Part shown: positions 1-28,065 of the stretch, one piece after another
Layout of the letters: the number at the start of each line of letters is the position of its first letter
How positions within the stretch are numbered: position 1 is the first letter of the stretch
Origin: Clostridia bacterium
Lineage (GTDB): Bacteria; Bacillota; Clostridia; Oscillospirales; RGIG8002
DNA: 36,289 nt
Direction: 5' to 3'
NCBI GenBank assembly: GCA_017453725.1
Contig: JAFTEJ010000072.1
Span: forward strand, 1 to 36,289
Notes under the pieces: model-generated
What the model saw: the letters and a program-made list of their open reading frames with translations, nothing else
What the model was told of the DNA's origin: nothing
The model's database searches: none
Position numbers and translations under genes: made by a program

Positions 1-591
1 GGTGTTCTGCGACGAACTATAAGACAGACTCGTCAGATCGAGCTTATAAATCAAATAATAACTGCTGGCGCTTTTAGCGGATATGCCCGCGGAAGCGGTT
101 ATAAAGGTCTTAAACTTGCTGCTGGCGAGAATGACGTTAGCGTTCTTCTCTCCGAGAGCCTCATAAAACGCCTGGTTACCGGCAATCTTGAAATAGAGCG
201 CCTTCTTATTCGACAGCTCGGCGTTTCCGAAAGGATTGACGTCGTCTATCAGGGTCGATATCGCTCTGATAGTAGCGGTCTTAGCGGTCGACAGATAAAT
301 ATGGTTATAATTGTCGCTCGAGTGACCGCCCTTTTCAGCGGAAGTAGTCGCGGTAAAGACTACTCTGCCGAAATCGTCCTTCGAATAGGAAACGTTAGAG
401 GCGTTATGCGCGGCGTCCAGATAGCCGTTGTTGCACATCTGGGACTGCTGCACCTGCTCAAGCGTGTACTGGTTGATGAACGGGATGTGCATCTGCACTT
501 CCGTGGCGGCGGAGACGTTGAAAACAACTACGCCGCTGAAGAGCGCCAGTACCATCGCGAAAGCAAGCAGTGAACTAAGGATTTTTTTCAT
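1..591 (-). CDS. Large secreted adhesin-like protein, N-terminal part only (3' end outside window)
   Basis: An open frame of 197 codons runs off the left edge of the window, so only the N-terminus is seen. It begins with a clear Sec signal peptide (KK n-region, hydrophobic core, VSAA cleavage region near residue 29) that is almost identical to that of the 1931-aa protein ending at 1490. The mature part resembles the N-terminus of the 1284-aa protein at 7989-11843: both have a QYT motif soon after the signal peptide and then an LIDxxxPFGxxxLSNK motif leading into beta strands. The chosen ATG at 591 is preceded by AGAGGAAG about 8 nt upstream. An in-frame ATG at 717 with a stronger Shine-Dalgarno would add 42 basic residues. 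I prefer 591 because the signal peptide then starts the protein. Function is unknown; a surface or substrate-binding role is inferred from the module type only. Confidence 0.85.
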   Translation of the reverse strand, partial: MKKILSSLLAFAMVLALFSGVVVFNVSAATEVQMHIPFINQYTLEQVQQSQMCNNGYLDAAHNASNVSYSKDDFGRVVFTATTSAEKGGHSSDNYNHIYLSTAKTATIRAISTLIDDVNPFGNAELSNKKALYFKIAGNQAFYEALGEKNANVILASSKFKTFITASAGISAKSASSYYLIYKLDLTSLSYSSSQNT

Positions 592-714
592 TTTTGTGCT
601 TCCTCTTTTCTTGATGAATTTTTCGCGTGATCGGGTTTGATTTGACTGAACATAGGTTTCGATCGGATGCTTTTTTCGCGCCGATGGGTGGCGGCGTTCA
701 TCCGACCATTTTCG

Positions 715-728
715 CATCACTCCTCCTT
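715..728 (-). promoter_or_regulatory. Strong upstream Shine-Dalgarno plus ATG in the leader of the first secreted gene
   Basis: On the minus strand AAGGAGGA (plus 721-728) lies 3 nt before an ATG at 717. This ATG is in frame with the signal-peptide ATG at 591, with no stop between them. It is either an alternative start that gives a long basic N-terminal extension or a regulatory site in the leader. The leader of the 1931-aa gene keeps an equivalent strong Shine-Dalgarno, but there the frames after it are closed. Confidence 0.45.
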
Positions 729-1426: not shown

Positions 1427-1489
1427 CAGCGGTATTATTGCGTATACCTTTGCGTTCGGCTCGCGCCTCGCGCTTTCGTGAGCGTCCCC

Positions 1490-4400
1490 TTACAGGGTGA
1501 CGTTCTCTACGATCAGCAGTCCGTCCTCGTTGACGGTGCCCGTATAGTTGGCGGGCTTGTCGCCTACGAAGAACCAGGTGCTGTAGTTCTCGCCGGCGCG
1601 GTTGATGCCGACGTAGGATGTGACGGTCACTCCGCCCGTGTACATATCAGCGATCTCTTCGCCGTTATAGGTGAAGTATACGCGCTTGAAGAGTACGAGC
1701 TTCTTGAGCGCGGAGTTATCCTTGCCGGAAGCGCGGAGCAGCGACTGATACGCGGGCGCGGTGTAGGAAATCGTCTCAACCTGCATCTCGACGCCGGGCA
1801 TAAAGTTGCCGATAACGGTCAGGCCGTTGACGTCGGAGAAGTACTTCTCGGTGTAAGCCGGAGCGTTGACGGTCAGGGCGATCTCGGCTTCGATGCCTTC
1901 ATAGAGGTCGACGAAGTCGGCGTCCGGAGTGAAGGTGACCGCGAATACGCTTTCGCTCTGAGCAATAAGCGGAACGACGTCCGGAGTTACCCAGGCCCAG
2001 GTGCCGGTCACGATGCCGGTATCGGCGTCCGTAAGGGCGGACTCGCCGATGGCCTGCGGATAGGTGATCGCGGCGGCGGTCGGCAGGACGTAGTTCTTGA
2101 TTATGCCCTTGCCGATGGTTCCGGTCGCGTCACTGTCGACCGTGTCGGAGGCGACGCCGGAAACGAGCTTCGCGTAGATCGTGGTGCCGATCTCGTCGGC
2201 GGTCAGCTCGTAGGTCTCGCCGGTGCCGAGCTTGTCGCCGTCGGCGTTGTACCACTCGATGGCGTAGTTCGTGCCGATGAGCGCCGGGATGTCCGCGACG
2301 GTGGCGGTCAGGGTCTCGGTGTATCTCTCAACGCCGCTGATCGTAACGGAAGCGTCGCCGAAGGTGGTCTTCGTCGTCTTCGCCGTTACGGTCGTGGCTT
2401 CGGAAGCGATGTGGTCGTCGGTGTCCTTGATGCGGACGGAGATCTGATACTCCGTGTCGGCTGCAAGGTCTTCGAAGACGTTGCTGTCCTGCCACTCGCC
2501 GGTGCCGAACTTATACTCGGCTTCTTCGATAGCGTCGATGGTTATGGTGCTGTCGGTAGCGGTGTAGGTCACGGTGGGAGCGGCGGGCTTATCGATGATC
2601 CTCTTGAGGACCTTCGCGGCGGCGTCGATGGCGGCCTGGTCGGCTTCGAGGTTGTAGTAAGCCTCAACACCGGCGGCGATTTCCGCGGCCCACAGGGTGG
2701 CGTCGATGGCCTTGACGGCGTCGATGTTCGCCTTGAGGGCGGTGCGGTCGGCGGCGGTGAAGCCGTCGAGGATCGCCTGGACGGCGGCGGTGGCGTCGAG
2801 GACGTCATCGCGGTCGACGGAGGTCTTCGTCGCGGCGGCGGCAGCCAGAGCTTCCGCGTATCTGTTCTCGTAGTCATAAGCCTGAACGGCGGCTATGACA
2901 GTGTCGAGAGCGGCCAGATCTTCGGGGGTGGAGGGGTAGATGCCCTTGTAGCCCTTCATATCGGAAACGGTAATGGTCGTGCCGTTGTCAACGCCGTAGG
3001 CTTCGATGATGAAGACGATGGCGTACTCGAGCTCATTCTGAGCGAATACGTTGGACCACCAGGCCTTTTCAAAGGCGCTGAACGGGATGTTGATGTAGCC
3101 GTCAGCGGCAACGTATTCAGGCTTGATGTTAAGCGCGTACATCTCTCTGTGTCCGGAGAAGGGAGCGCTCGGCGCGCAGTTGGAGAGACCGATAAGCACT
3201 CTTTCCGCCTTGCCGCCGGTCACTTCGAGCTTGAAGCGGATACCTTCGGCCTTGGAAAGTCCGGCAACGTTCAGCGCCGGATAAGCGCCGTTTTCTTCGG
3301 GCTGCAGGGTCTGGCTGCGGTCCATATTCTTCCAGCCCATCGACTTGCCGGCGAAGTCGGCGGTCGCGGTCATGGAGAAGCTGCCGTCAGCGGCAAAGGT
3401 GGTGTTGTTGGAGAAGTCGCCGGCGTTCCAGACGTTCGGTCTGTTCAGACCGTCGCCGATGGAGTCGCAGAGCTTGTTGCTGTTAGCGGTGACGGTGGCG
3501 TTGACAGCCTCGGTCGTCCAGCCTTCCATCAGGTTGCCGGTGACGGACTTGATATCGGGATACTCGAGAGCGGCGATAGCTGCGCGTGTGGCGTCGAGGT
3601 CGCCGGAGTTGACGGCGGTCTGCAGCGCAGCCCAGCTGTCAGCACTGTAGTTGGATTCCCACAGATCCGCAACGAGATCAGCGGTGGTAAGAGCTCTGTA
3701 GCCCTTGACATCGGAGATCTTTATCTCGGTGCCTTCGGCAGCGCCGTAAGCTTCAACGATAAAGACGATGACGTTCTCGAGCTCGCTCTGCGCAAACGCG
3801 TTGCACCAGAAGGCTGCCTCGAAATAGCTGAACGGGATGTTGATATAGCCGTCAGCAGCGACGTATCCGGGCTTGATCTTCATCGCGTACATCTCTCTGG
3901 TCGTGTTAGAGCAGTTGGAGAGACCGATGAGGATTCTATCGACGGGCTTGCTGGCCTCGAGCTTGAAGCGGATGCCTTCCGCCTCGGAGAGTCCGGCAAC
4001 GGTCAGCGCCGGATAAGCGCCGTTCTTATTGGGCTGCAGGGTCTGGCTGCGGTCCATATTCTTCCAGCCCATCGCCTTGCCCGTGAAGTCGGCGGTCGCT
4101 TTCATGGAGAACCAGCCGTCGCCGGCGGTGAAGGTGGTGTTATTGGAGAAGTCGCCGGCGTTCCACGCGCCGTTGATGTTGAGGCCTTCGCCGATGGAGT
4201 CACAGAGCTTGTCGCTGTTCGCGGTGACGACGGCGTTGACAGCCTCGGTCGTCCAGCCGGAGAAGAAGCTGCCGGTGGTCGCGATGGTCTCGTAAGGAAC
4301 GAGCTTAGCGATGGCGGCGTCACGCGCTTCCTTGGTCTTCGCGACAGCGAGGGCGGCTTCGTAGGCGGCCCAGCTCTCGGCGGTGTAGTTGTATTCCCAG

Positions 4401-7285
4401 ATGTTGGTGATCAGCTCGTCTTCGATGTCGAAGTCTCTGCCGGAGTAACCGTAAACGTCGGAGATCTTGACGGTCGTGAACTTGGATACGCCGTAAGCTT
4501 CAACGATGAATACGATGACGTCCTCGAGCTCGCTCTGAGCGAAGGAGGAGGTCCACCAGGCGTTCTCGAACACGCTGAAGGGGATGTTGACGTAGCCGTC
4601 AGCCGCGACGTATTCGGGCTTGACGTTGATCGCGTACTGCTCGCGGACGAACTTGGAGCAGTTGGACAGACCGATGAGCAGTCTTTCGACGGTGCCGTCC
4701 TCGACCTCGATCTTGAAGCGGATGCCGTCGGCCTTGGAGAGTCCGGCGACGTTCAGCGCCGGGAAGGCGCCGTTATCGGCGGGCTGCAGGGTCTTGCTGC
4801 GGTCCATATTCTTCCAGCCCATGGACTTGCCGGTGAAGTCGGCGAGAGCCATCATGGAGAACCAGCCGTCGCCGGCGGCGAAGGTGGTGTTGTCGGAGAA
4901 GTCGCCGGCGTTCCATACGTTGGGCTTGTTAAGGCCGTCGCCGATGGAGTCGCAGATCTTGCCGCTGTTCGCGGTGACGACGGCGTTGACGTCCTGCGTC
5001 GTCCAGCCGGAGAAGAAGCTGCCGGTCACGGGCTTCGTGTAAAGCGGGACAAGGGCGTCCTTCGCGGCGATGAGGGCTTCCTTATCGCCCGCGGCGGCCG
5101 CGGCCTTCAGAACCGCCCAGCTGTCGGAGGTGTAGTTGTACTCCCAGAGATCGCCGACGTAATCGGAAGGATCGAACGCCTTGTATCCGGTGAGGTCGGA
5201 GATCGTGAGGGTGGTGCCTTCGGTCACGCCGTAGGCTTCGACGATGAAGACCTTGACGTCCGCGATGTTCTCAGCGGTGAAGGCGTTGCCCCACCACGCC
5301 TTTTCAAACGCGGTGAAGGGTATGTTGATGTAGCCGTCGGCGCCGAAGTACGCGGGAACGAGATTGAGAGCGTACATTTCCTTCGCGCCGCCGGTGGGGC
5401 CGCAGTTGGAGAGACCGATGAGCAGACGCTCATAGGAGCCGCCCTCGCTGACGTCCAGCTTGAAGCGGATGCCCTCGCCGTTCTCGATGCCCTCAGCGTT
5501 GAGCGCGGGATAAGCGCCCGCGGAAGCGGTGTTCATCGTGTTGCGGTCGAGGTTCTTCCAGCCCATGGACTTGCCGGCGAAGTCGGCGGTCGCGGTCATG
5601 GAGAAGTTGTTTTCCGCGGCGAAGGTGGTGTTATCGGAGAAGTCGCCGGCGTTCCATACGTTGGGGGTGTTCAGACCGTCGCCGATGGAGTCGCAGACCT
5701 TTTCGGGGTTGGCGACGACAGGCACGTTGACGTTGGCGGTGGTCCAGCCCTGCATCATGTTGCCGGTGGTGACGTCGATGACAGCGGGCTGAAGGTCGGT
5801 AACGGCGGCCTCTATCGCGTCCTCGTTACGGGTCGAAACGGCGTCCTTGACGGCAGCCCAGGATTCGGGAGTGTAGTTGGCTTCCCAGAGATCGTCGGTC
5901 GGATCGTAGACGGACTTTCTGAAGAGCTGCATATCGGAGACGACGAATCTCTTCCATTCCGTGTTGCAGCCGCCGCCGACATACTGGAGGATCATATTGC
6001 CGTAAAGCTGGGTCGTATTGGCGTACTGAGAGAGGACCTGATCAGCCCAGCCGCTCTTCATATCATTGAAGTAGAAATACAGATAGCCGTCGGCGTAGTT
6101 CGGGAACATCTCGCCGGAGGCGCAGCTGTACTCGGCTATGAAGGTGGGGTACCAGGTGTTGCTGAAGGACTTCTCATTGGAACCGACGAGCTTCAGGCTG
6201 ACGGTGACTCTGCCGTGGCCGTCCCAGCTGTAGGTGACGGGGTCTCCGCCGCCGGTAGCGGTCGTGGAGATACCTATGCGGATACCGTCCCACTTCTGCA
6301 TCTCGCCTATCGCCTTGTAATCGCCGAAGACGTCGCCGTTCTGCTGCTTGGCGGCAGTGTCGGTGTTCGTCTGGGTGGACCACTGCTGGGTCCAGTTGTT
6401 CGGCTTATAGTCCTTGGTCGGGAGCAGGCCGTGAGTGGAGTTGCCCCTCATAACGCCGGCCTTGTCATAGAACTGGAGCGCGGTGCCGGTGGCGCCGGTT
6501 TCGGCGAGCGCGACGGCGTTGTTCGCGTCGAGGTTAGCCTGAGTCCAGTCGTTGAAGCCGGGCAGATCCTGATACTCATAGAGATCGGCGATGCTGCCGT
6601 TTCTGACGTAACCCTGAAGATCGGAGAAATAGACGGTCGTCGGAGCGGCGTACATCAGGAAGGATATACCGTTGATCTTGTTCAACTCGGTGGAACGAAG
6701 CTTCTCGGTATTCGTCGTGCTGGCTCTGGTGAGGCGGCCGAAATCGATGACGTTATAGCCTTCGCTGTCGAGCTCGGGCTTGCCTCTGTAGCGCCAGTAG
6801 TTGCCCCAGCCGCTGGCCTGGACGATGAATCTGTATTCACCGTAAACGCTGACGGGCTTGCCGTCGGCGTCGGTCAGCTTGAAGCGGATACCGTTCATCT
6901 CGCCGAGCGTCTTGGTTCCCTCAACGGGAGTCCAGGGGTTGACAGACAGAGTCGCGCCACTGTTGTATTTGTAAGTGACGATCGACTGAGTGTACTTCTG
7001 GTTGTTGGCGGGGTTTGTGGTAAGCTTCAGCTCGCCGGGCTTTTCGGTCAGCTCGAGTTTGCTGGAAACGGCGTTGTAAACCGCGCCGTTAGCATAGCCG
7101 ACGTTGCCGGAGAGCGTGTCGAGCTCCGCCTGAGTGGTCTGCGTGAAACCGGTCAGGTCGAAGTAGTCGTACGTTACCAATGCGTTGGGGTCTTCAATAG
7201 CGGCGGAAGTATTGAACAATACGACTCCGCTGAAGAGGGCGAGCACCATCGCAAAAGCAAGCAGTGAACTAAGGATCTTCTTCAT
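1490..7285 (-). CDS. 1931-aa secreted multimodular protein with four tandem beta-sandwich/FIVAR units
   Basis: The ATG at 7285 gives a signal peptide at once (cleavage near residue 29) and has AGAGGAAG about 8 nt upstream; a further in-frame start at 7330 has no Shine-Dalgarno. Layout: two unlike beta-sandwich modules (about 30-228 and 232-458), then four tandem units beginning near residues 508, 755, 1005 and 1250. Each unit has a beta-sandwich of about 190 residues; the first three end in a helical FIVAR-like stretch (YNYTxxSWAxL). Next come a helical region (1453-1565), an FN3-like domain (1567-1640), two Ig-like domains (1644-1725 and 1730-1807) and a C-terminal domain (1811-1931) shared with the 1284-aa neighbour. 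Every unit keeps one Cys in a CDSIGxGLN motif and another in GLSNC. No catalytic site, dockerin, SLH or LPXTG is visible. A role in binding glycans or surfaces is inferred. The gene has its own promoter and terminator. Confidence 0.92.
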   Translation of the reverse strand: MKKILSSLLAFAMVLALFSGVVLFNTSAAIEDPNALVTYDYFDLTGFTQTTQAELDTLSGNVGYANGAVYNAVSSKLELTEKPGELKLTTNPANNQKYTQSIVTYKYNSGATLSVNPWTPVEGTKTLGEMNGIRFKLTDADGKPVSVYGEYRFIVQASGWGNYWRYRGKPELDSEGYNVIDFGRLTRASTTNTEKLRSTELNKINGISFLMYAAPTTVYFSDLQGYVRNGSIADLYEYQDLPGFNDWTQANLDANNAVALAETGATGTALQFYDKAGVMRGNSTHGLLPTKDYKPNNWTQQWSTQTNTDTAAKQQNGDVFGDYKAIGEMQKWDGIRIGISTTATGGGDPVTYSWDGHGRVTVSLKLVGSNEKSFSNTWYPTFIAEYSCASGEMFPNYADGYLYFYFNDMKSGWADQVLSQYANTTQLYGNMILQYVGGGCNTEWKRFVVSDMQLFRKSVYDPTDDLWEANYTPESWAAVKDAVSTRNEDAIEAAVTDLQPAVIDVTTGNMMQGWTTANVNVPVVANPEKVCDSIGDGLNTPNVWNAGDFSDNTTFAAENNFSMTATADFAGKSMGWKNLDRNTMNTASAGAYPALNAEGIENGEGIRFKLDVSEGGSYERLLIGLSNCGPTGGAKEMYALNLVPAYFGADGYINIPFTAFEKAWWGNAFTAENIADVKVFIVEAYGVTEGTTLTISDLTGYKAFDPSDYVGDLWEYNYTSDSWAVLKAAAAAGDKEALIAAKDALVPLYTKPVTGSFFSGWTTQDVNAVVTANSGKICDSIGDGLNKPNVWNAGDFSDNTTFAAGDGWFSMMALADFTGKSMGWKNMDRSKTLQPADNGAFPALNVAGLSKADGIRFKIEVEDGTVERLLIGLSNCSKFVREQYAINVKPEYVAADGYVNIPFSVFENAWWTSSFAQSELEDVIVFIVEAYGVSKFTTVKISDVYGYSGRDFDIEDELITNIWEYNYTAESWAAYEAALAVAKTKEARDAAIAKLVPYETIATTGSFFSGWTTEAVNAVVTANSDKLCDSIGEGLNINGAWNAGDFSNNTTFTAGDGWFSMKATADFTGKAMGWKNMDRSQTLQPNKNGAYPALTVAGLSEAEGIRFKLEASKPVDRILIGLSNCSNTTREMYAMKIKPGYVAADGYINIPFSYFEAAFWCNAFAQSELENVIVFIVEAYGAAEGTEIKISDVKGYRALTTADLVADLWESNYSADSWAALQTAVNSGDLDATRAAIAALEYPDIKSVTGNLMEGWTTEAVNATVTANSNKLCDSIGDGLNRPNVWNAGDFSNNTTFAADGSFSMTATADFAGKSMGWKNMDRSQTLQPEENGAYPALNVAGLSKAEGIRFKLEVTGGKAERVLIGLSNCAPSAPFSGHREMYALNIKPEYVAADGYINIPFSAFEKAWWSNVFAQNELEYAIVFIIEAYGVDNGTTITVSDMKGYKGIYPSTPEDLAALDTVIAAVQAYDYENRYAEALAAAAATKTSVDRDDVLDATAAVQAILDGFTAADRTALKANIDAVKAIDATLWAAEIAAGVEAYYNLEADQAAIDAAAKVLKRIIDKPAAPTVTYTATDSTITIDAIEEAEYKFGTGEWQDSNVFEDLAADTEYQISVRIKDTDDHIASEATTVTAKTTKTTFGDASVTISGVERYTETLTATVADIPALIGTNYAIEWYNADGDKLGTGETYELTADEIGTTIYAKLVSGVASDTVDSDATGTIGKGIIKNYVLPTAAAITYPQAIGESALTDADTGIVTGTWAWVTPDVVPLIAQSESVFAVTFTPDADFVDLYEGIEAEIALTVNAPAYTEKYFSDVNGLTVIGNFMPGVEMQVETISYTAPAYQSLLRASGKDNSALKKLVLFKRVYFTYNGEEIADMYTGGVTVTSYVGINRAGENYSTWFFVGDKPANYTGTVNEDGLLIVENVTL
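2945..5764 (-). repeat. Four tandem ~740-bp coding repeats (R1-R4)
   Basis: Inside the 1931-aa gene four units follow each other, starting near plus 5764 (R1), 5023 (R2), 4273 (R3) and 3538 (R4), spaced 735-750 bp. They share long stretches of near-identical DNA, for example around the codons for CDSIGDGLN, WNAGDFS, GKSMGWKN and ADGYINIPF. A fifth, more diverged copy lies in the neighbouring gene at about 10005-10583. Confidence 0.93.
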
Positions 7286-7332
7286 AATTGCTTCCTCTTT
7301 TCTTTCATAAAATTTCGCGAGTTTGATCACGA

Positions 7333-7988: not shown

Positions 7989-10900
7989 TTATGCGATGTC
8001 CGCAACAAAGCCGCTGACGGAAATCACGCCGTTGGCGTCGACAACGCCCTGCGCACTCATGACCTCGCCGTCGGCGAAGAACCAGACGGTGTAGGTCTCG
8101 CCGGCGCGGCTCGGGCTGAGCTGAGCGCTGAGGGTCAGCGTGCCGGCGTAGCAGCGGCTTTCGAACGTAACGCTCTTGAAGAGGACGAGGTTGTTGCCCT
8201 CGCTGTCTCTCGCGGCGCGGAGCAGCGCAAGGTAGGAAGGCTTGCCGGCCTTGACTTCCTCAACCTTCACAACGGGGTCGATGCCGATATAGAACTCGCC
8301 GGTCAGCGAGATTCCGGAGGCGGCGTCAGCCACGGTGCATTCCTCGGTGTTGCTCGCGATGACGACCGTGACGTTAACGGTGACGGTCTTGTAGCACTCG
8401 GCGTCGGCCGGAGTGAAGACTGCCGCGAAGGTGCTGCCGGACTGTTCCGCGTCGGGAATCAGATCCGGATCGGCCCAAGCCCAAGCGCCTTCGACGCTCG
8501 CTTCGCCGCCGATGAGCTGCGCGGAGCCGAGCTTGTCGCCGATCATAATGGTAACGTCGGCGGGGTTGACGGAGATGACCGGAGTCGCCTTGTCAATCGC
8601 GGCGGTGGGTTCGCTGACGAGCGTTCCCTCGTAGTTCGCGGCGGTGACGGAAACGGTCAGGGCCGTGCCGATGTCGCTCGCGACGACGGTGTATTCGGAG
8701 CCGGTGCCGACTTCCTCTTCGCCGTTGCTCCAGACGTATGTCAGCTCGCCGGGCTCGTCGCCGATGCCGGTGACTGCCGCGGTCAGGGTCGCGCCGAACA
8801 CGGCTTCGCCCTCGATTGCGACTTCACCCGTAACGGGAGCCTTCGCGGTCTTTACGACCAGCGGCGTGGACGGCGCGGAGGGGTTGTATCCGCCGATGGC
8901 GGCGACTCTCGCGTAGAAGGTGTATTCGGTGTTGGCTTCGAGTCCGGTATACTCGGTGACGCCGGACCACTCGCCGTCCTCGCCCATTCTGTATTCGATG
9001 CTGTCGGGACCGAGATTCAGCGTGATGCTGTTATAGGTGACCGAAGCGACGGTCGGAGCCGCGGGGGCTTCCGGAGTCGCGGCGGCAACGAGTCCCGCGG
9101 CGGCGTCCGCGATCTGAGCGGCGGTGGCGTCCTTGTTGTAGTAAACAGTCATAGCGTCGGCGTATCCGTCGAGGCCGAGGTCCTTATACTGAACGAGCGC
9201 GGTCTTCAGCGCGGCGCGGTCGATGCCTTCGTAGAGGATGACCTGCCAGCCGTAGATGTCCTTGTTGACGTTGGCGTAAAGCTCAAAGACGCCGTACTTC
9301 GCCTTTTCCCTGATCTGCTCCTTGGTCCAGTCGCCGTACCAGTCGCCGTTACCGCCCTCAACGATTTCATCCATATAGTAGGTGAAGTAACCGTCGACGT
9401 ACTGCGGCAGGTGCTGCTTGGTAAGCATACCGCTCCAGTTCTCTTTGCCGACGCCGTCCTTATAAGCGATGGCCATCTGATCCAGCTTGTTGGTGACGGC
9501 GTTCTCGACCTGGAATCTGAACGCGATAATATCGTTGAGCGTATAGCCGCCGAGCATAGCGATGAGGTCTTTCCCATCAAAGGATTCAACCCTACCGAAA
9601 TAGCAGTCAAACTCGTTGAAGCCGGTAGTCAACGGGTCGACCATCTTGGCGGGAACGAAGCCCCAGCTTCCGTTGGTAAGCGAATACTTCATTCCTCTCT
9701 CGGTCTTGACGAAGATGCATCCGCCCTTGTCGTACGCCGGGAACTGATCCATTTCTTCCTGAGTGAAGATGCTGAAGCCGGGGACGTCGACGATCGCGGC
9801 GTCGGGATCCTTGTAGCCGTAAAGAACCTCAAGGATTCTATCGGTCATCTCTTCGTAATCGGAGGTATAGTTCGCGGCGAGCGAAAGCTCGGCAGCCTCC
9901 GCAACGAGGGCGGAATATCTGCCGTCGATATCGAACGCCTGCAGCATGGCAACAGCGGCGGCGAGCTTCTCAGCGTCTTCGGCGGTGGCGTTGTTGAGTT
10001 CCTTGTATCCGCGGAAATCGGAGAAGGTGATGGTCGTTCCGTCTTCGACGCCATAGGCTTCGATGATGAGAACGATAGCCAGATCAAGGTCGTCCTGTGT
10101 GAAGGCCTTGCCCCACCACGCCTTCTCGAAGTAGCTGAACGGGATATTGATATAGCCGTCTTCGGCTACGAATTCGGGCTTGATGCGGAGCGCGTACTGC
10201 TCGAACGAATGTCCGGCGCAGTTGGAGAGACCTATCAGGATTCTCTCAACGGAGCCGTCGGCTTCGAGCTTGAAGCGGATGCCGTCCGCCTTGGAAAGCC
10301 CGGTCGCGTCAAACGCGGGATAGCCGTAGTTGGCTTCGGTGGCGAGCGTTCCGCTGCGGTCCATGTTCTTCCAGCCCATCGACTTGCCCGCGAAACTGTC
10401 AAGCGCGGTCATGGAGAAGTTGTTATCCGCCTCGAAGGAGGTGGTGTTGGTGAAGTCGCCGGCGTTCCAGACGTTCTCCTTGTTCAGGCCGTCGCCGATG
10501 GAATCGCAGAGCTTGACGCTGTTCGCGTCAACGACGTCATTGACGGCAGCGGTCGTCCAGCCATCGAAGAAGTCGGCGGTCGTGCTCTTTGTGGGCAGCG
10601 CGACGAGGCCGGCGTAGGCGGCGTCGAGGAGCACTATCGCACCCGCGGCGTCTTCATCATATATAGCCCACGCCTCGTCGATGGCGGAAAGGAGCGCTTT
10701 GTAGCTCTTCGTGGTGTAGTTGTACTGCCACGCGTTCACGCAGGCGTCAAACGCGGAATATACGTCTTCGTCGGCAAGCTCTTCAAGGATGAGCATTCTG
10801 ACGACTTTGATGTGATAGCGCAGCTCGTCGAGCGTGGCGTTCGGATTCGTATAAGCCGAATCGGCGGCGCTGACTTCACTGTAATGCGCGTAGCCGGAAT

Positions 10901-11843
10901 CGAAGAAGTCGAGATTGTCCGCCATCGTAAGCAGGGCGTCGAGGTCGGTCTTCGCCTTCTCGTAGCCGAACTTGATCTCGTCGATCGCGTCGTTCAGTCT
11001 CGTGGTGATCGCGTCGATTTCGGACTGAGTGTGGCTCTCGGCGTTCTTGTAGGTATCCTCGGCGGTCTCGATGAGGGAGGCGGTGAACTCCGCCTTCTTC
11101 GCGGCCTGGATGGCTCTGCCTAGCTCGGCGCTGTCAACGCTGCCGTAAGCGTGGAAATCGTCGATGTAGAAGGAAAGGCGCTTGCCGGCCATAGAGGCGG
11201 TGTTCTCAAATCTGATCTGGAACTGATCGATTCCGCCGTAGTAGGTATCGGGGATATCCTGGCAGTCACGCCACCAGCCGCCCGCGGCATCGCCGCCGAC
11301 GAATGTAGTGCCGTACCAACCGGTTTTTGCCCATTCGACAACGTAGTAGTCGCCTTCCCTGTCGGCGGCTCTGAAGTCGATGGCGATCTTCTTCGTGGAG
11401 CTGCCGAAGCAGAAGCTGATGCTTCCGTTGAACGCGACGTCGCCGACGTTGACTATCTTGAATTTGAAGCCGAGCTTGTTGGAAAGATCAACGTCGCCGA
11501 AGGGAGAGAGCCCGTCGATGAGGACGTTCTTTCTCCACTGATCGTACTTATCGGCAGTGGCCATATTGCAGTTGTATCCGCCGTAAGCGTCACCGGTAGC
11601 CGGAACGGTAACGTTGAAGATCGTGTGACCTTCTTCGTCCTTCGTAAACTGCCAGTCGCTGCCGTACTCATAGTTGTCCGAGACCCTCTTGGCCATACGG
11701 TCCATCTGAGCGGGCGTGTACTGATTGAAGCCGGGCATCGCCATTTTCACGTATTCGACTGCCGAAGACGTGAAAAGCACGAGTCCGCTTCCCATTGCGA
11801 GCAGCATTGTAACCGCAAGCAATACGCTGAGTAGCTTTTTCAT
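7989..11843 (-). CDS. 1284-aa secreted multimodular protein
   Basis: The start ATG has a perfect AGGAGG/GGAGGAG Shine-Dalgarno 6-7 nt upstream and opens with a signal peptide (cleavage near residue 28). Modules: an N-terminal beta-sandwich (30-235) that begins MPGFNQYT and contains SPFGDVDLSNK; a long helical FIVAR-like region (238-418); one copy of the unit repeated four times in the neighbouring 1931-aa protein (about 421-613), with the same CDSIGDGLN and GLSNC cysteines; a second PGFxxFT-type sandwich (about 686-870); a short helical part; an FN3-like domain (925-1000); two Ig-like domains (1003-1085, 1088-1162); and the shared C-terminal domain (1166-1284). No enzyme motif, dockerin or cell-wall sorting signal is visible. 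It is a paralogue of the two genes downstream, is transcribed from its own promoter and ends in a strong terminator. A surface or matrix-binding role is inference. Confidence 0.92.
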   Translation of the reverse strand: MKKLLSVLLAVTMLLAMGSGLVLFTSSAVEYVKMAMPGFNQYTPAQMDRMAKRVSDNYEYGSDWQFTKDEEGHTIFNVTVPATGDAYGGYNCNMATADKYDQWRKNVLIDGLSPFGDVDLSNKLGFKFKIVNVGDVAFNGSISFCFGSSTKKIAIDFRAADREGDYYVVEWAKTGWYGTTFVGGDAAGGWWRDCQDIPDTYYGGIDQFQIRFENTASMAGKRLSFYIDDFHAYGSVDSAELGRAIQAAKKAEFTASLIETAEDTYKNAESHTQSEIDAITTRLNDAIDEIKFGYEKAKTDLDALLTMADNLDFFDSGYAHYSEVSAADSAYTNPNATLDELRYHIKVVRMLILEELADEDVYSAFDACVNAWQYNYTTKSYKALLSAIDEAWAIYDEDAAGAIVLLDAAYAGLVALPTKSTTADFFDGWTTAAVNDVVDANSVKLCDSIGDGLNKENVWNAGDFTNTTSFEADNNFSMTALDSFAGKSMGWKNMDRSGTLATEANYGYPAFDATGLSKADGIRFKLEADGSVERILIGLSNCAGHSFEQYALRIKPEFVAEDGYINIPFSYFEKAWWGKAFTQDDLDLAIVLIIEAYGVEDGTTITFSDFRGYKELNNATAEDAEKLAAAVAMLQAFDIDGRYSALVAEAAELSLAANYTSDYEEMTDRILEVLYGYKDPDAAIVDVPGFSIFTQEEMDQFPAYDKGGCIFVKTERGMKYSLTNGSWGFVPAKMVDPLTTGFNEFDCYFGRVESFDGKDLIAMLGGYTLNDIIAFRFQVENAVTNKLDQMAIAYKDGVGKENWSGMLTKQHLPQYVDGYFTYYMDEIVEGGNGDWYGDWTKEQIREKAKYGVFELYANVNKDIYGWQVILYEGIDRAALKTALVQYKDLGLDGYADAMTVYYNKDATAAQIADAAAGLVAAATPEAPAAPTVASVTYNSITLNLGPDSIEYRMGEDGEWSGVTEYTGLEANTEYTFYARVAAIGGYNPSAPSTPLVVKTAKAPVTGEVAIEGEAVFGATLTAAVTGIGDEPGELTYVWSNGEEEVGTGSEYTVVASDIGTALTVSVTAANYEGTLVSEPTAAIDKATPVISVNPADVTIMIGDKLGSAQLIGGEASVEGAWAWADPDLIPDAEQSGSTFAAVFTPADAECYKTVTVNVTVVIASNTEECTVADAASGISLTGEFYIGIDPVVKVEEVKAGKPSYLALLRAARDSEGNNLVLFKSVTFESRCYAGTLTLSAQLSPSRAGETYTVWFFADGEVMSAQGVVDANGVISVSGFVADIA

Positions 11844-13275: not shown

Positions 13276-16200
13276 TTATCGCGGAAGGGTTATAAGACCG
13301 ACCGCCGCGCGAAGAATATAAAGCGCGTCGCCCACGGTCACTTCGCCGTCTTTGTCAATATCGCAGCAAGCGATCATATACGGCGTCTCTTCCTTTATCT
13401 TAGCGGCGATACGCAGGGCGGCCAACGCGTCCGAAACGGTGATTACGCCGTCGCCGTCAGGGTCGCCGAGGACCGCGACCGGGCCCGCGTTGACGGTGAA
13501 GCCGATCGTGATCTCTTTATCGCGGTTGGTAACCTTAAGAACGTATTCGCCCGACTCGCTGACGGTTACTCCGGATCCGACGGACACGCCGTTGAGCTCT
13601 CCCCTGCCGACGTCCCAGGTGATAGTGACGGGCGCGTCATATACGCCGCCGTCCTCAACGCCTGTAACTATGGGCATTTCCGCTTCATCCTGATACGCGA
13701 CAAGGTCGTAATAGTAAACGCCGGTGGTCGTTTTGCCCGCGCCGGTGACGCCGATTATCTCCAACTTTGAAAGGTCGAGCCTTTCGTCTCCGCTGACGCG
13801 CACGAAATCCTTGAACGGCGCGGTGATTTCAGCTTTGTCGGCGCTTATCGATCCGACGTTGAACTTATAGAGCGTATCCCCGTTCTCGCCGGTATAGCCG
13901 ATAAGAATATCGCTGTCGTTGACGTCCTTGGTGGAATAGGTCTTGAATTTCAGCCCGGTATAATCGGTCATGTCGGCGACAAACGGGTTCTTGATAACTT
14001 CGTCTCCGACCTTGTTGCTGAATTCCCACTTTGTGCGCGTTGAGTATACGCAGAGGGCGTTATGGGTAACCCCGGCGTCGGTAACGTCGCGCATCGTGGC
14101 GCGGCAGGTAGTGACGGTCATAAGCGACGTATCCGAAGTCTGCCACGGCTTGAAACCGAAGATCTCGTTATCCTTGAGCGCGACAGCGCAGCGGACCGTT
14201 CTCGCGGCTGCGTCAACGTCCGCCTGATCGGCGGTGTATATCCTCGCGAGTTTCTTATACTTGTTCCTGACGCTTTCGAGGACTCCCCACGAACGGGCGG
14301 AATAATCATCGGGATCCGCCTCGGACGCGGCGAGAAGCGCGGCTTCGAGCTCCGAAACGTCAAGGCTTCCGGTGCCGAGATCCCAGCAAAGCGTATTCGC
14401 CTTCGCGTGGAAGGTTATGCCGTAAACCTTCGTGCCGTCAGCGGCGAAAACGGCGTCATGAACGGCGTTGCACTTCTCCTGTCTGCCGTTGAGAGTGCGG
14501 AGGTATTCGCCGTTCGCGGTGTAAAGTCTGCCGTAGCCGTCAAGGCTCATCAGAAGTATCATCTTGCCGTCCGGAGACCAGCGCGCCGTCGGAACGGCCT
14601 GCATAAAGCCGCCCATTACCGAAACGAGCTTGCCGGAGACGGCGTCAAAGAGTCTGCCGCCGTCGGCGCTTCCGCTGACAAGCAGCCTCGTTCCGTCCGG
14701 CGAGAACTCGCAGGTGCGGATCGAAGCGGAACTGACGTTCGCGGCCTCGTACTTCATCGTCTTGCCGGCGACGTCGTAAACGAATATTTTTCCGCCCTCG
14801 TCGGTCGTTGCGAGCAGCGAGCCGTCCGGAGACCACGCAAGGCCTCTGGCGCAGCGGATATGATCGCTGAAGGAGGCGTATTCGCTCAAGGCGCTGCCGT
14901 TTACTATATTGTATATGATTATCTTCCCGTTCGCGCAGGCGGCGGCAAGCTTGGTGCCGTCCGGCGAAAGCTTCAGGGTTCTGACGTTGCTGCCGGTAAA
15001 CGGGCCTTCGGTCACGGCGCCGCTCGAGGCGTCCATAATATACAGGTATTGCGATACGTCCTTTGAGGGAATAATGCCGGCGTTATCGCCCTCATTGGTG
15101 ATCCTGCCGCCCGCAAAGAGCTTACTGCCGTCCTGATTGAACGCGACCGCCTCTACGTAAAGGTTAGTGGATCTGCCGGTACTGAGTCTCCCGAAGGCGG
15201 GATTCGACAGCACGACGACGTACCCGCCGCGGGACGCCACGGCAAGCTTGCTGCCGTCGTTGCTGAAAAGAAGCTTGGAGATCTCGTTATATCCGCAGCC
15301 GTTACTCCTGAGCAACGAGCCGTCCGACGCGTCGGTGAGGTACGCCGTTCCCCTGTCCGCCGAAGCGACGTATTTGCCGTCCGGAGAGACGTCGAGAGCG
15401 CACATCCAGTTGCTGCCGGTGACCGCTTTCGACGGAGTAAGGATCTCGTCGTCATACGCGGTGACCTCCGAAATCTCGCCGGCGCGTTTGTAAACGCGGA
15501 CGTAATCGACGTACATAAACGTTTCGGCAGCCATATCGCTGTAGACCTGATTGCTGCCGGGTCCCTTGACGGAAACGTTAAGTATAAGATAGTGCGGGTT
15601 ATCGCCGAAGCCCCAGCGCAGCTCGTCGGTCTTCAGCAGCATCGACATATAAAGCATTCCGTCGATATAGCTTCTCGCCTGCGTTTCGTCCCATTCGACC
15701 GTGTAGGTATGATAATCATTCGAGTATTTTTCCTTGTTCTCGTTATATATGGTCGTTCCCTTCGCGGCGTGGATCATATAATCGTTGCTGGTATCACTGC
15801 CGTAGAGGTTGCCCTGATAGGTGAACCAGTGGTTCGTCGCGTAAACCGCGTAAGCGTCGCTGGAGTTATCGTTTATATCGTATTCGACCATATCGAGCTC
15901 TCCGTTGTACGGCCAGTTGCCGTACTGCCCCATCGCCCAGAACGCCGGCCACGAACGTTTGCCGTCCGTCATCTTGGCTCGCATCTCGATCTTGCCGTAG
16001 GTCACGCCGTAGGTGCCTTCGGTGTCGATCCACGCGGATGTGGCGTGATATCCGTTATATTCCTCCTTGGCGGTCCTTATAACGAGATTGCCGTCCTGGA
16101 GGTAAAGGTTGTTTGCGTCGTCGCGGTGATACTGCGGTTCGGTGTCGCCTCTCGTGTGCCCGACGGCGGGGATCCACTTTGTACGGTCAAGCGACGTGCC

Positions 16201-17550
16201 GTTGAACTCGTCACCCCAGACCTCGACCCATTCATCGGAAATGCACTTATAGACGTCCCACTCATAAGCGGAGCTGACGAGCGCGGGATTTCCGCTACTG
16301 ATACCGAGATACTTGCTGCCGCTCTTGAAGACGAATCTGCCGTTGCTTACGGTCACGGACCATTTCTGATAGGAATTATCTAGATCCTCGTTGTGCTCGA
16401 GCGTAAGCTTTCCGTTTTCGATAATACCGAGCGTCCTGTCGCGCGTCATACAAGCGGAGGTACCCTGGTTGATGAGCTTATAATCGCCGCTGCGCAGCTG
16501 CTTGTAGATCTGCCACTGCTGGGTCACGTCGCAGCCGTTGCCGACGCTCATCGAAAACGACTGGTCAGAAGACGTCCAGTCGAGTCTGGTGCTCGACGCC
16601 TGCTTTTTGAAGACGGTTTCGGTAAGCTCCGGTCCCCAAGTGACGACCTTTCCGGTCGCGGGATCGGAAATCTTATACACGTGGTCGTTATCGATCTCGC
16701 TGAGCGCGGTGACCTTCACTTCTTCATAAACGCGGTCGTCTCTCTCCACCGTTTCGGCGAAGGCGTTGACGCCGGAAATGTATACGCTCGTTCCCGGAAC
16801 GCCCGAAACTCCGAATCCGATGCGGTTCATAGCGCCCGAAAGGTCGATCTTTGAATCGGGAGTCGTCACTTCCGGATAGAATATCTCCCACGGGATATAA
16901 ACGTAGCCCTCTTTCGTGACAGGGACGTCGTAAACCGAAAGCAGCTCCTCTGTTCCGGCGTTAAGCTTGCCGACGTAGACCTCCAACCCGAAAATTGCCG
17001 AATAATCGCTCGCGGAAAGCCATATCGCCAGACCGTCAGTGAAGTACATCTCGACGCCGAACGGCGAATAAGCGCCGTCCTCGCCGGGAGCGTTGAAGAA
17101 GGTGCCGTAAGCATCGTCGAGCGTAAGCTTCAACGACTGCGCGGCGCCCGGCGCTTTGACAGCCGTTGTCAGCTCGGCGGCAACGGCAAATCCACGCATA
17201 CTCGCTATCTGCCCGGCCGTCCACTTATCGACGCCGTTGATATCCGTTCCGCCGGAAAGCTCCATAGGGATAAAGCCTTCCATAGCGGCGACGAGGGTTT
17301 CGTAAGCGCCGTCTATCTCGATCTGCGAAGCGGAGTCGTCGATGATAACGGCGTCTGCGGCAAGGAGCTTGCCGTAAAGATACTTTCTCGTCTGCTCGCT
17401 TCCGCCGGAGAAATAAAGCTCGCGAGCTTCATTCAGCTTTTGCTCAAGCTCCGCCTTCGTCGTTGAGGCGGACGCGCTGAACGTGAGTGTTCCGGCAAAA
17501 ATGCCGGCGATCATACAAAAAAGGATAAGTGCCGATATTAGCTTCTTCAT
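13276..17550 (-). CDS. Secreted GH16 glucanase with ricin-type lectin, WD40-like propeller and dockerin (1424 aa)
   Basis: A signal peptide (cleavage near residue 28) is followed by a FIVAR-like helical stretch (32-95), a beta-sandwich (103-266) like those of the adhesin-like neighbours, and a ricin-type beta-trefoil (275-436; QQW and QKW). The GH16 catalytic domain (442-690) has the ELDMVE signature: E551 is the expected nucleophile, D553 the assisting residue and E556 the acid/base. The bulged ExDxxE form fits laminarinase-type beta-1,3(4)-glucanases. Next come eight WD40-like repeats (about 710-1065; SPDGxxLA then a YD/FD strand), a FIVAR-like segment (1066-1126), a sandwich (1127-1290), an Ig-like domain (1292-1356) and a type I dockerin (1361-1420; two DxDxDG calcium loops and LRxA helices). 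It starts 76 nt after the kinase stop, without a U-tract terminator, so read-through from the operon is possible. GGGAGG lies 6 nt before the ATG. Confidence 0.93.
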   Translation of the reverse strand: MKKLISALILFCMIAGIFAGTLTFSASASTTKAELEQKLNEARELYFSGGSEQTRKYLYGKLLAADAVIIDDSASQIEIDGAYETLVAAMEGFIPMELSGGTDINGVDKWTAGQIASMRGFAVAAELTTAVKAPGAAQSLKLTLDDAYGTFFNAPGEDGAYSPFGVEMYFTDGLAIWLSASDYSAIFGLEVYVGKLNAGTEELLSVYDVPVTKEGYVYIPWEIFYPEVTTPDSKIDLSGAMNRIGFGVSGVPGTSVYISGVNAFAETVERDDRVYEEVKVTALSEIDNDHVYKISDPATGKVVTWGPELTETVFKKQASSTRLDWTSSDQSFSMSVGNGCDVTQQWQIYKQLRSGDYKLINQGTSACMTRDRTLGIIENGKLTLEHNEDLDNSYQKWSVTVSNGRFVFKSGSKYLGISSGNPALVSSAYEWDVYKCISDEWVEVWGDEFNGTSLDRTKWIPAVGHTRGDTEPQYHRDDANNLYLQDGNLVIRTAKEEYNGYHATSAWIDTEGTYGVTYGKIEMRAKMTDGKRSWPAFWAMGQYGNWPYNGELDMVEYDINDNSSDAYAVYATNHWFTYQGNLYGSDTSNDYMIHAAKGTTIYNENKEKYSNDYHTYTVEWDETQARSYIDGMLYMSMLLKTDELRWGFGDNPHYLILNVSVKGPGSNQVYSDMAAETFMYVDYVRVYKRAGEISEVTAYDDEILTPSKAVTGSNWMCALDVSPDGKYVASADRGTAYLTDASDGSLLRSNGCGYNEISKLLFSNDGSKLAVASRGGYVVVLSNPAFGRLSTGRSTNLYVEAVAFNQDGSKLFAGGRITNEGDNAGIIPSKDVSQYLYIMDASSGAVTEGPFTGSNVRTLKLSPDGTKLAAACANGKIIIYNIVNGSALSEYASFSDHIRCARGLAWSPDGSLLATTDEGGKIFVYDVAGKTMKYEAANVSSASIRTCEFSPDGTRLLVSGSADGGRLFDAVSGKLVSVMGGFMQAVPTARWSPDGKMILLMSLDGYGRLYTANGEYLRTLNGRQEKCNAVHDAVFAADGTKVYGITFHAKANTLCWDLGTGSLDVSELEAALLAASEADPDDYSARSWGVLESVRNKYKKLARIYTADQADVDAAARTVRCAVALKDNEIFGFKPWQTSDTSLMTVTTCRATMRDVTDAGVTHNALCVYSTRTKWEFSNKVGDEVIKNPFVADMTDYTGLKFKTYSTKDVNDSDILIGYTGENGDTLYKFNVGSISADKAEITAPFKDFVRVSGDERLDLSKLEIIGVTGAGKTTTGVYYYDLVAYQDEAEMPIVTGVEDGGVYDAPVTITWDVGRGELNGVSVGSGVTVSESGEYVLKVTNRDKEITIGFTVNAGPVAVLGDPDGDGVITVSDALAALRIAAKIKEETPYMIACCDIDKDGEVTVGDALYILRAAVGLITLPR

Positions 17551-17626: not shown

Positions 17627-19546
17627 TTAATTGAAATTAAAGCTGACCGTACCGTTATCGAAATTGACCTTTCCCTGCCTGATGACGTCTTCGTTAATCT
17701 TGAAGACCCACTCCTTCGTTCCGCTGTTGCCCTTGAAGGTCACTTGGATGCCGTTCTTCACAAGGTCGGAATTGTAGTTGACGTCTACGAGGCGGAGCAC
17801 CGACTCTTTCTCGCCGGATTTCTCTTTGACGGTGTAGATGTCAACGTTGAAGCTCGTATAATCCTTGTATATCTCAGGAACATCAAATGTGAACGGCACC
17901 TGCTTTATCACAAGCGTACCGTCAGAGATAGTCAGGTCGACCTTGTCGCCCTGATTGAGGGTACCCTTGTCCGGATTTTGGGCTATGACAGTGCCGGCGG
18001 CTTTTTCGGAAGCGGCGGTAGTCACAACGCCCTTGTCAAGTCCCGCGTCCTTCAGCTTCTTCTCCGCTTCGGACTCGGTCAGACCGATGACGTTGACGAC
18101 ATCAACGGGACTTACGGAAGGACCGGTGCTGACGTATACGGTTATCTCTTCACCGATCTTGACCGGGGTGCCGCTTTTCGGATTAGTGCCGATGACAAGC
18201 CCTTCGGGCACGTCGTCGTCCGACTTCTTTTCTTCGACACAGGTGAGGTTGGCCTTCTGTATTTCAGCTTTTGCCGCCTGGAACGAAAGCTGCGCGACGT
18301 CCGGGACCTCGACTTTCTGAATGCCCTTGCTGACGGTCAGATATATGCGGTAACCCTCAGTGTTGACCTCCGTGCCGTCCTTTGGCTGCTGCGAAATTAT
18401 CTGCCCTTCCTCGTATTCATCGCTCCAGACCTTGTTCTGCTCCACGAAGACGAACTTGTTCGTATACTGCGTATCGTTGACAACGTCGCTGTAATACTTA
18501 CCCTTGAAATCGGGTATCACGACGGCGTTGTCTCCGCCTCCCGAAGCGATAAGAACGACGAGCACGACCGCGACAATGACGAGCACCGCGGTTATCGCGA
18601 TGAGTATGGGAACAAAGGAGGGAACCTTTGAACCCTGCTTGTCGGTCTGGGGCTTAATCTTACCGAAGTAACGCGTCTTGGCGGAATCGTCGGTCAGATC
18701 GTAGTCAAAAACAACGTCGGGATCGTTCTTTACCGCCTGGATATCCTTCATCATATCCGCGGCGGAAGCGAATCTCTTTTCGGGCGCTTTTTGCATCGCC
18801 TTCATTATGATCTGATCGACGCCTATCGGAATGGTATCGTTGATTATTCTGGGATTGTCCGGCTGTTTCTGGACGTGCTGGAGCGCGATGGAAACCGGCG
18901 TATCACCGTCAAACGGGAACTGCCCGGTCGTCAGCACATAGAATATCGCGCCGAGCGAATATATATCCGCCTTGAAATCCGTCTCGTTGCCGGACGCCTG
19001 CTCCGGACTGATATAGTGGACAGAGCCGAGCGCCATTTCGCTCATGGTCTTCGTATCTACCGAAGCCATACGCGCAATGCCGAAGTCCGTGACCTTGACT
19101 GTGCCGTCTTCGAGCAGCATTATGTTCTGCGGCTTCAGGTCGCGGTGGACCACTCCCCTCTCATGGGCGTGCTGGATGCCCTTGAGGGTCTGCTCCATAA
19201 TGGCGATCGCATCGTGCAGAGGGAGCACCTTTTTAACGTCTATATACTGCTGGAGCGTTATGCCGTTGATATACTCCATAACGATATACTGCGGTCCGTC
19301 GCCCGAACCTACGTCGTATATGCTGACGATATTGGGGTGCGAGAACATTGCTATCGCTTTAGACTCGTTCTTGAAACGGCGGCGGAACTCCTCATCCTCC
19401 GCGAATTCGTCCTTGAGTATCTTAACCGCAACGTTTCTCTCCGCGAAGCGGTCATAAGCCTTGTAGACGATAGCCATTCCGCCGACGCCGATGACCTCGC
19501 GGATCTCGTATCTGTTGTCAAGTCTTACTCCGAGATATTTATCCAT
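17627..19546 (-). CDS. prkC: PASTA-domain Ser/Thr protein kinase (PrkC/PknB/Stk1 family)
   Basis: A membrane-spanning eukaryotic-type kinase that senses cell-wall fragments in Firmicutes and phosphorylates division, wall and translation proteins. The cytoplasmic kinase domain (about 10-275) has the glycine loop GVGGMAIV, K42, the catalytic HRD at 134-136 followed by LKPQN, DFG at 154-156 and an SPEQ motif. One transmembrane helix lies near 310-334, followed by three extracellular PASTA domains (about 344-407, 411-476, 483-543). A further extracellular tail of about 95 residues (545-639), rich in beta strands, is not PASTA-like. The gene starts 3 nt after the stop of its phosphatase partner, with GGAGG 8-9 nt before the ATG. 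Next downstream is a secreted GH16 enzyme instead of the usual rsgA. Confidence 0.96.
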   Translation of the reverse strand: MDKYLGVRLDNRYEIREVIGVGGMAIVYKAYDRFAERNVAVKILKDEFAEDEEFRRRFKNESKAIAMFSHPNIVSIYDVGSGDGPQYIVMEYINGITLQQYIDVKKVLPLHDAIAIMEQTLKGIQHAHERGVVHRDLKPQNIMLLEDGTVKVTDFGIARMASVDTKTMSEMALGSVHYISPEQASGNETDFKADIYSLGAIFYVLTTGQFPFDGDTPVSIALQHVQKQPDNPRIINDTIPIGVDQIIMKAMQKAPEKRFASAADMMKDIQAVKNDPDVVFDYDLTDDSAKTRYFGKIKPQTDKQGSKVPSFVPILIAITAVLVIVAVVLVVLIASGGGDNAVVIPDFKGKYYSDVVNDTQYTNKFVFVEQNKVWSDEYEEGQIISQQPKDGTEVNTEGYRIYLTVSKGIQKVEVPDVAQLSFQAAKAEIQKANLTCVEEKKSDDDVPEGLVIGTNPKSGTPVKIGEEITVYVSTGPSVSPVDVVNVIGLTESEAEKKLKDAGLDKGVVTTAASEKAAGTVIAQNPDKGTLNQGDKVDLTISDGTLVIKQVPFTFDVPEIYKDYTSFNVDIYTVKEKSGEKESVLRLVDVNYNSDLVKNGIQVTFKGNSGTKEWVFKINEDVIRQGKVNFDNGTVSFNFN

Positions 19547-19549
19547 TCA

Positions 19550-20275
19550 TCAACCCTCCATTGAATTACCGCTTATCACGACCGCGGTGGCATTGTCCGT
19601 TCCGCCGCGTTCGACGGCAAGAGCGATCATACCGTCGACCGCTTCGTCGGGAGGTTTCTCCATTAACCCGGCGAGCTCGCTGCCGTCGACCAGGTTCGTG
19701 ACTCCGTCGGTGCAAAGCAATATGGAATAGTTTTTCGGCAAATAGTATTCGGTGTAATCCGCTTCGATCTCCGCGGCAACCCCGAGCGCACGCGTTATAA
19801 GGTTTCTGTTAGGATAGCTTCGCGCCTGATCCGGCGTCAGCTCGCCGCTTTCCAGCAGCTCCTGAACAACGGAATGGTCGCGTGTGAGCTGCTCAAGCTC
19901 GGTACCGTTGAACAGGTACGCACGCGAATCTCCCGCATGGACAAGATAGAGCGTACCGTCACGCACCGCGGCGGCGACGATGGTCGTGCCCATACCTTCG
20001 AGGGAATCTACTTCTTTTGATTTTTCATAAACAGCATAGTTCGCGGCGTCTATCGCGGAAAGAAGCACGTATTTCAGATCGGCGTTCTTCTCGGCGACGG
20101 AAACCCGCTTTGCAACGATGTCCGCGGCTATATCCGACGCGACTGCGCCGCCGTTGGCACCGCCCATTCCGTCACAAACAACGGCGTAGGCGAAGTTCTC
20201 GCCCTCGCCCATTATAAAGGCGTCCTGGTTTTCCTTCCGGACAAGCCCTATGTCGCTTGCTCCGTATACCCGCAC
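19550..20275 (-). CDS. prpC: PP2C-family protein phosphatase (PrpC/Stp)
   Basis: This metal-dependent Ser/Thr phosphatase reverses phosphorylation by the adjacent PASTA kinase. At 241 residues it has the normal family length. The N-terminus SDIGxVRKENQD, the VCDGMGG metal-binding loop, HAGDSRAYLF, LTRDHS and the late GGTDNATA motif are all present, so it should be active. The start is a GTG at 20275 with AAGGAG upstream inside the 15-nt gap after rlmN. The stop is followed within 3 nt by the kinase ATG, as expected for a translationally coupled pair. Confidence 0.95.
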   Translation of the reverse strand: MRVYGASDIGLVRKENQDAFIMGEGENFAYAVVCDGMGGANGGAVASDIAADIVAKRVSVAEKNADLKYVLLSAIDAANYAVYEKSKEVDSLEGMGTTIVAAAVRDGTLYLVHAGDSRAYLFNGTELEQLTRDHSVVQELLESGELTPDQARSYPNRNLITRALGVAAEIEADYTEYYLPKNYSILLCTDGVTNLVDGSELAGLMEKPPDEAVDGMIALAVERGGTDNATAVVISGNSMEG

Positions 20276-20290
20276 GGCACATCACTCCTT

Positions 20291-22638: not shown

Positions 22639-23336
22639 CAGTCGCTTCTCCTGCCGAATATCATCAGCAAACGCAGGATGTTCATCAGCGTCACGAAGAA
22701 CGCCGCGACGTAGGTCATTGCGGCGGCGGTCAGCACTCTTCTCGCGCCAACCGCTTCCGTATCCGAAAGCGTGTTATGCTCGCGTATGGCCGCCATTGCT
22801 CTCCGGGAAGCGTCGAACTCGACCGGCAGCGTTATAAGCTGCACGAACAAGCCCGCGAAAAGAATTATAAACGCGGCCTTGAAAAGAATCATACTCGCGT
22901 TTTGGTTCGAAATCAGAACGGAGATTATCAGCAGCGGTATCGGCAGCCAGGAAACGAACTGCGTTATCGGAATAACGAAATTACGTATCCGCAGCGGAAA
23001 GTATCCGATGTTGTGCTGAACGGCGTGCCCCGCCTCGTGCGCGGCTATGCCGACCGCCGCAACGGAATCCCTGTCAAAAACCCCGGCGGAAAGGCGTATC
23101 GCCTTCGACTTGGGGTCGTAGTGGTCTCCGCTGTTGTTCTGCAGGCGCTCGATGCGCACATCGTAAATGCCGTTGGCGGAAAGGATCGCCTCCGCCATTT
23201 CTTTGCCCGTTACTCCTCTGGCTGTGCGCACCTGCCCGTATTTGCTGATAGCCGAATTGACGACTATCTGCGTGATGAGCATAAAAATCAGCGCCGGAAC
23301 CACAAGAATTATATACCAGCTGTCAATATACCACAT
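22638..23336 (-). CDS. Membrane zinc metallopeptidase (YugP-like, Zn_peptidase_2)
   Basis: This is a 232-residue integral membrane protein of the YugP/PF04298 family, whose physiological substrate is unknown. An N-terminal transmembrane helix (about 6-25) is followed by a soluble part with the zinc-binding HEAGH motif (AAHEAGHAVQH), then two or more hydrophobic segments and a C-terminal membrane helix. The start at 23336 (MWYIDSWYI) matches the usual family N-terminus and has GAGGAGTG about 6 nt upstream, overlapping the end of fmt. An upstream in-frame start at 23420 would add 28 unrelated residues and is not preferred. Its place between fmt and rsmB is common in Clostridia. Confidence 0.93.
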   Translation of the reverse strand: MWYIDSWYIILVVPALIFMLITQIVVNSAISKYGQVRTARGVTGKEMAEAILSANGIYDVRIERLQNNSGDHYDPKSKAIRLSAGVFDRDSVAAVGIAAHEAGHAVQHNIGYFPLRIRNFVIPITQFVSWLPIPLLIISVLISNQNASMILFKAAFIILFAGLFVQLITLPVEFDASRRAMAAIREHNTLSDTEAVGARRVLTAAAMTYVAAFFVTLMNILRLLMIFGRRSD

Positions 23337-23340
23337 ATAA

Positions 23341-24258: not shown

Positions 24259-24263
24259 GCGTA

Positions 24264-24746: not shown

Positions 24747-24767
24747 TTTGATTTCCTTTCAATTCAT

Positions 24768-28031: not shown

Positions 28032-28065
28032 TGATTTCCTCTTTATCAGACGCGGTCCGCCGCAT

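Follow-up and report, generated by a model that had tools for sequence, protein, structure and literature searches.

Candidate carbohydrate-binding units, remotely related to CBM11, in a tandem-repeat protein of a rumen Clostridia bacterium

The array gene, its paralogues and their surroundings

The window, i.e. the whole stretch of 36,289 nucleotides that was analysed (contig JAFTEJ010000072.1 of the Clostridia bacterium assembly GCA_017453725.1, 1.64 Mb and 75% complete), carries a gene, P0002, encoding a large protein organised as an array of sandwich domains (Table 1). The N-terminus of P0002 reads like a signal peptide, and an in-frame GTG is located upstream of the ATG, at position 7330; the gene would cover 1490-7330 if this codon were used. 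Four tandem units had been described in this protein in an earlier note on this DNA, and their starts were found at residues 507, 754, 1004 and 1249, as claimed there. The fifth copy that it had placed in a 1284-aa protein was likewise recovered, in the paralogue P0003. The sandwich unit itself is about 195 aa long and the linkers of the array measure 51-55 aa. A helical segment of about 50 aa with the motif LWxYNYTxESW lies ahead of every unit, in a longer form in P0003, and a tandem model of units 3 and 4 (pLDDT 85) displayed a confidently helical linker. Since domain N1 was profile-homologous to the units and N2 to N1, about six sandwich domains of the P0002 array are, judging from these alignments, related to one another, and four alone of them bear the cysteine pair discussed below.

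Table 1. Positions of the features of the array gene P0002 and of its paralogue P0003 in the window
Feature	Position	Strand	Remarks
P0002, array gene	1490..7285	-	1931-aa predicted secreted protein from the ATG at 7285 (MKKILSS...)
N1	6596..7174	-	diverged sandwich domain without Cys pair; hhalign against the unit profile: probability 96.7, E 4e-10
N2	5912..6583	-	second diverged sandwich domain; hhalign N1-N2: probability 96.7
Helical linker ahead of unit 1	5768..5911	-	LWEANYTPESWAA...; helices inferred from the homologous unit 3-unit 4 linker in the tandem model
Unit 1	5180..5767	-	Cys codons 5693-5695 and 5402-5404
Helical linker 1-2	5027..5179	-	
Unit 2	4442..5026	-	Cys codons 4952-4954 and 4658-4660
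Helical linker 2-3	4277..4441	-	
Unit 3	3695..4276	-	Cys codons 4202-4204 and 3911-3913; third Cys in FWCN
Helical linker 3-4	3542..3694	-	helices 198-202, 212-224 and 227-235; pLDDT 93-96 for most of the linker (tandem model)
Unit 4	2945..3541	-	Cys codons 3467-3469 and 3176-3178; used for AlphaFold prediction
P0002 C-terminal region	1493..2944	-	helical and Ig/fn3-like segments, conserved terminal domain
P0003	7989..11843	-	1284-aa paralogue with one unit
P3N	11136..11756	-	P0003 N-terminal sandwich-like domain; weak link to N1 (hhalign probability 52, E 1e-4)
Unit 5 (P0003)	10002..10580	-	Cys codons 10506-10508 and 10218-10220
P3M	9222..9803	-	second P0003 sandwich-like domain; weak link to P3N (hhalign probability 63, E 7e-5)

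No dockerin was found in P0002 or P0003 by Pfam scan, no catalytic domain was returned by the scans of these arrays and no LPXTG was seen on reading their C-termini; neither protein has an obvious cell anchor. Sortases occur in the genus, with no tie to these two proteins. A partial open frame without Pfam match is present at positions 1-720 (-), and its stretch 166-591 is 40% identical to the N-terminus of P0003; it is therefore likely to be another paralogue, truncated where the contig ends.

An open frame of 1929 aa (1478-7267, +) runs antisense to P0002, and long antisense frames likewise oppose the paralogues in L009, L010 and L011. This frame was rejected as a gene: P0002 contains a single TTA, CTA or TCA codon in 1932, at a GC3 of 0.83, and this near lack of such codons at high GC3 accounts for the long antisense frame.

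Two further genes of the window (13276-17550 and 24768-28031, both -) encode secreted proteins combining a GH16 domain, a WD40 beta-propeller and a C-terminal dockerin, an unusual layout; BspA-type leucine-rich repeats are also found in the second. As possible relatives of the units, two domains of P0004, the GH16 protein, were also examined, without a convincing match. The gene at 24768-28031 is flanked by housekeeping genes def (24264-24746) and priA (28066-30558), and the gene run to which it belongs (17627-30558, -) also includes genes for a PASTA kinase and a PP2C, as well as rlmN, rsmB and fmt.

Analysis of the distribution of the unit showed that it was present in all four sampled genomes of the genus, with 43 matches in their retrieved contigs, and in none of the 55 other genomes sampled from the order. 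Among 391 genomes sampled across the class, just one marginal match of 48 columns (E 0.007) was obtained outside the genus, and a scan of genome contigs returned solely the water-buffalo rumen MAG RGIG8183, a member of the genus. The four genus genomes (G000-G003) are small, 1.6-1.9 Mb, and each encodes 52-73 dockerins and 1-5 recognisable cohesins. In G002, five paralogous array genes are close together on one contig (C18). A different context was provided by a 2124-aa protein (L058:5685-12056, +), in which one unit is combined with DUF4886 and a dockerin; the dockerin is present in its G003 counterpart too. Unit proteins of 2082-2114 aa resembling it were encountered in L057 and L053, and one cut by the contig end in L012.

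Divergence of the units and the cysteine pair

Identity among the five window units was 59-74% at the protein level and 69-80% at the DNA level; dS was 0.35-0.72 and dN/dS 0.32-0.59. On this basis they are clearly homologous, though not near-identical. A unit profile scored them with domain E values of 3e-106 to 7e-116; as those five units had themselves served to construct it, its matches in other genomes (E down to 1e-110) are the better proof against chance.

The array of four homologous units agrees with the tandem multiplication of the module that had been proposed. The further assumption that this multiplication was recent, or that the units were kept uniform by gene conversion, can be evaluated from the related genomes. 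The orthologue of P0002 contains four units in all three species. In a tree of 41 units, unit 1 of the three species formed a clade (support 100/100), as did unit 2 (99/98), and dS between units within the window protein (0.34-0.65) was about equal to that separating them from their relatives at the same position (0.36-0.56). Because of these positional clades and of the similar dS within and between species, the array predates the divergence of the species and has not been homogenised in this genome; by their phylogeny, units 1 and 2 were duplicated before that divergence, and recent multiplication is refuted for them. Apparent traces of such events were, however, visible elsewhere. Units 3 and 4 of two relatives (G002 and G003) were 89-92% identical in protein, contained identical runs of 87-113 bases and had a dS of 0.20, versus 0.37-0.39 for unit 3 between species, a pattern compatible with conversion acting locally, or with renewed duplication, in these two lineages. 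The earlier proposal thus seems to apply to units 3 and 4 of two relatives and not to the window genome, and as an explanation of the four units as a whole it is very unlikely.

One cysteine pair per copy had also been reported, and both cysteines (C25 and C122) were indeed present in all five window units; they were also kept in 39 of the 41 genus units in which the two positions are covered. This retention speaks for a structural disulfide stabilising the module outside the cell, as had been suggested. However, both informative losses concerned a single cysteine: of the pair, the unit at L011:1796-2350 (AC) retained just the second cysteine and that at L013:4714-5292 (CV) just the first. Nor is the degree of conservation particular to these positions, since 49 of the 192 alignment columns, both cysteines included, were at the same or a higher level. 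A third cysteine occurred at position 163 in 21 of 40 units, with three cysteines in total in 17 of the 40, and the region of C25 was modelled with low confidence in unit 4 (pLDDT 62-64). Finally, searches of the four genus genomes (three with a completeness of 97% or more) with models of DsbA, VKOR and DsbB found none of these enzymes, while positive controls were matched. Other clostridia possess such disulfide-forming enzymes (PMC12453122), so the lack of these three families is no proof against an oxidant. Owing to the single-cysteine losses, the three-cysteine units and the failure to find DsbA, DsbB or VKOR, a disulfide is doubtful, and the proposal of a disulfide-stabilised module is weakened to the point of being rather improbable. 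Conserved free thiols are a more likely state of the two cysteines than an obligate disulfide.

Fold and family relationships

No useful match was obtained for the units in Pfam, in NCBIfam or among PDB sequences, in agreement with the earlier note, in which the sandwich was not recognised as a named family. Six aromatic residues were invariant in 40 units (W8, W70, W162, Y135, Y149 and Y198), and Tyr182 was nearly so. The AlphaFold model of unit 4 (mean pLDDT 86.6, weaker at residues 21-40) was a jelly roll. Its top three VIA matches were CBM11 entries (Z 8.6, 8.3 and 8.2), followed by CIA30 (7.8), CBM30 (7.6) and CBM17 (7.1); for this predicted model, the CBM11 match had an rmsd of about 4 A over 135-140 residues. 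Foldseek on a single unit returned CBM30 (E 1.7e-3) and CBM11 (E 3.1e-3), with no match below 1e-3. Taken alone, the structural match constitutes moderate evidence: Z values of 7-8 are commonly obtained with models that have no clear relatives, and 8.6 barely exceeds the values frequently seen for unrelated models. Per-domain Foldseek matches of the two-unit model were again to CBM11. Its whole-length matches (Cry insecticidal proteins, vicilins and others) had an rmsd of about 20 A and TM scores of at most about 0.2, and were discarded as strings of beta-domains without meaning.

Independently of the structure, comparison of profiles supports a remote homology between the units and CBM11. An hhalign alignment of 40 units with CBM11 sequences from other Clostridia yielded a probability of 84.5, an E value of 7e-6 and scores of 40-42, versus a maximum of 23.1 for 60 column shuffles and 13-15 for reversed profiles. 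The homology spans about 100 C-terminal columns, in which Tyr182 of the unit falls on a CBM11 tyrosine that we take to be the platform residue Tyr152 of CtCBM11; the global profile alignment was too weak to place the remaining binding residues. Domains N1, N2, P3N and P3M did not individually match the CBM11 profile. Likewise, no unit reached the gathering score of the CBM11 Pfam model (PF03425), and that model had no match in the four genus genomes, while the same search found CBM11 in other Clostridia. According to the models and alignments, CBM11 is thus the family closest to the units by fold and profile, profiles having been compared for CBM11 and structure alone for CBM30, CBM17, CBM28 and CBM29. 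Since the units are absent from Pfam and fall outside the CBM11 family model, they were not filed as CBM11; they represent a candidate new CBM family of known fold, most likely CBM-like in its working.

Putative function and comparison with known systems

The carbohydrate-binding role that had been put forward as a possibility is well supported by the fold match of the predicted model together with the CBM11 profile homology. We consider it probable, at about 0.6, that the units are jelly-roll modules remotely related to CBM11 and, at a looser level, to CBM30 and to the CIA30 fold, and that short helical spacers string them together into a fibre-binding array that is multivalent and non-catalytic. 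Such an array would be secreted; by acting on one polysaccharide, its several weak sites would provide high avidity and so keep the cell, or its enzymes, attached to plant fibre. The genomic setting, namely a dockerin-rich genus, the protein combining a unit with DUF4886 and a dockerin, and the GH16 genes of the window, was counted in favour of fibre binding. As mixed-linked beta-glucan is a ligand of CBM11 and the window contains two GH16 genes, beta-glucan is by analogy a plausible ligand, though a guess.

A shared jelly-roll fold does not by itself establish binding, and the lack of Pfam and PDB sequence matches for the units, of individual CBM11 matches for N1, N2, P3N and P3M, and of an obvious cell anchor or dockerin in P0002 and P0003 also counts against this reading. 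The units may instead be structural or adhesive stalk domains involved in protein-protein contacts or in a cell-surface lattice. This explanation would accommodate arrays in which the scans detected neither catalytic domain nor dockerin, the five paralogues lying side by side in G002 and the almost equally good fold match of CIA30, a non-sugar protein. It is at odds with the profile homology to CBM11, with the many invariant aromatics and with the use of the unit beside DUF4886 and a dockerin, and we regard it as unlikely. If the units do bind carbohydrate, they would constitute an unnamed CBM family with more than 40 copies over four dockerin-rich, rumen-type genomes; a non-catalytic, multivalent adhesion layer would be added to the picture of fibre breakdown in ruminants, and ready-made tandem polysaccharide binders would become available. 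A broader proposal, that the unit founds a genus-restricted CBM family whose dockerin-free multivalent arrays form a separate fibre-adhesion system of a cellulosome-type rumen lineage, is tentative and somewhat less probable than its opposite.

Among known systems, the linkers recall FIVAR (PF07554) as helical spacers between sandwich units and by a YT-x-x-SW motif that we take to be FIVAR-like. They differ in being just some 50 aa long, and none of the five matched the FIVAR model even at E <= 10. CIA30/NDUFAF1 (PDB 7zkq and 7zkp), a mitochondrial complex I assembly factor that is neither sugar-related nor secreted, belongs to the same fold class (Z 7.4-7.8) at 6% identity; we know of no sugar-binding role reported for it despite its CBM11-like fold. 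The jelly-roll modules CBM30, CBM17 and CBM29 have the same overall fold (Z 6.9-7.6), and no sequence match to them was seen. With CBM11 (PF03425; CtCBM11 of Lic26A-Cel5E; PDB 1v0a, 6r31 and 6r3m), the units share the jelly-roll fold, profile homology and the aligned tyrosine, whereas identity in the structural match is 13-14% and there is no Pfam match. The units have in addition an N-terminal helix and a cysteine-bearing loop, and a different loop replaces the R-x-DYQPP of CBM11. Moreover, CBM11 is a single module on a glucanase, whereas the units occur in tandem arrays with helical spacers.
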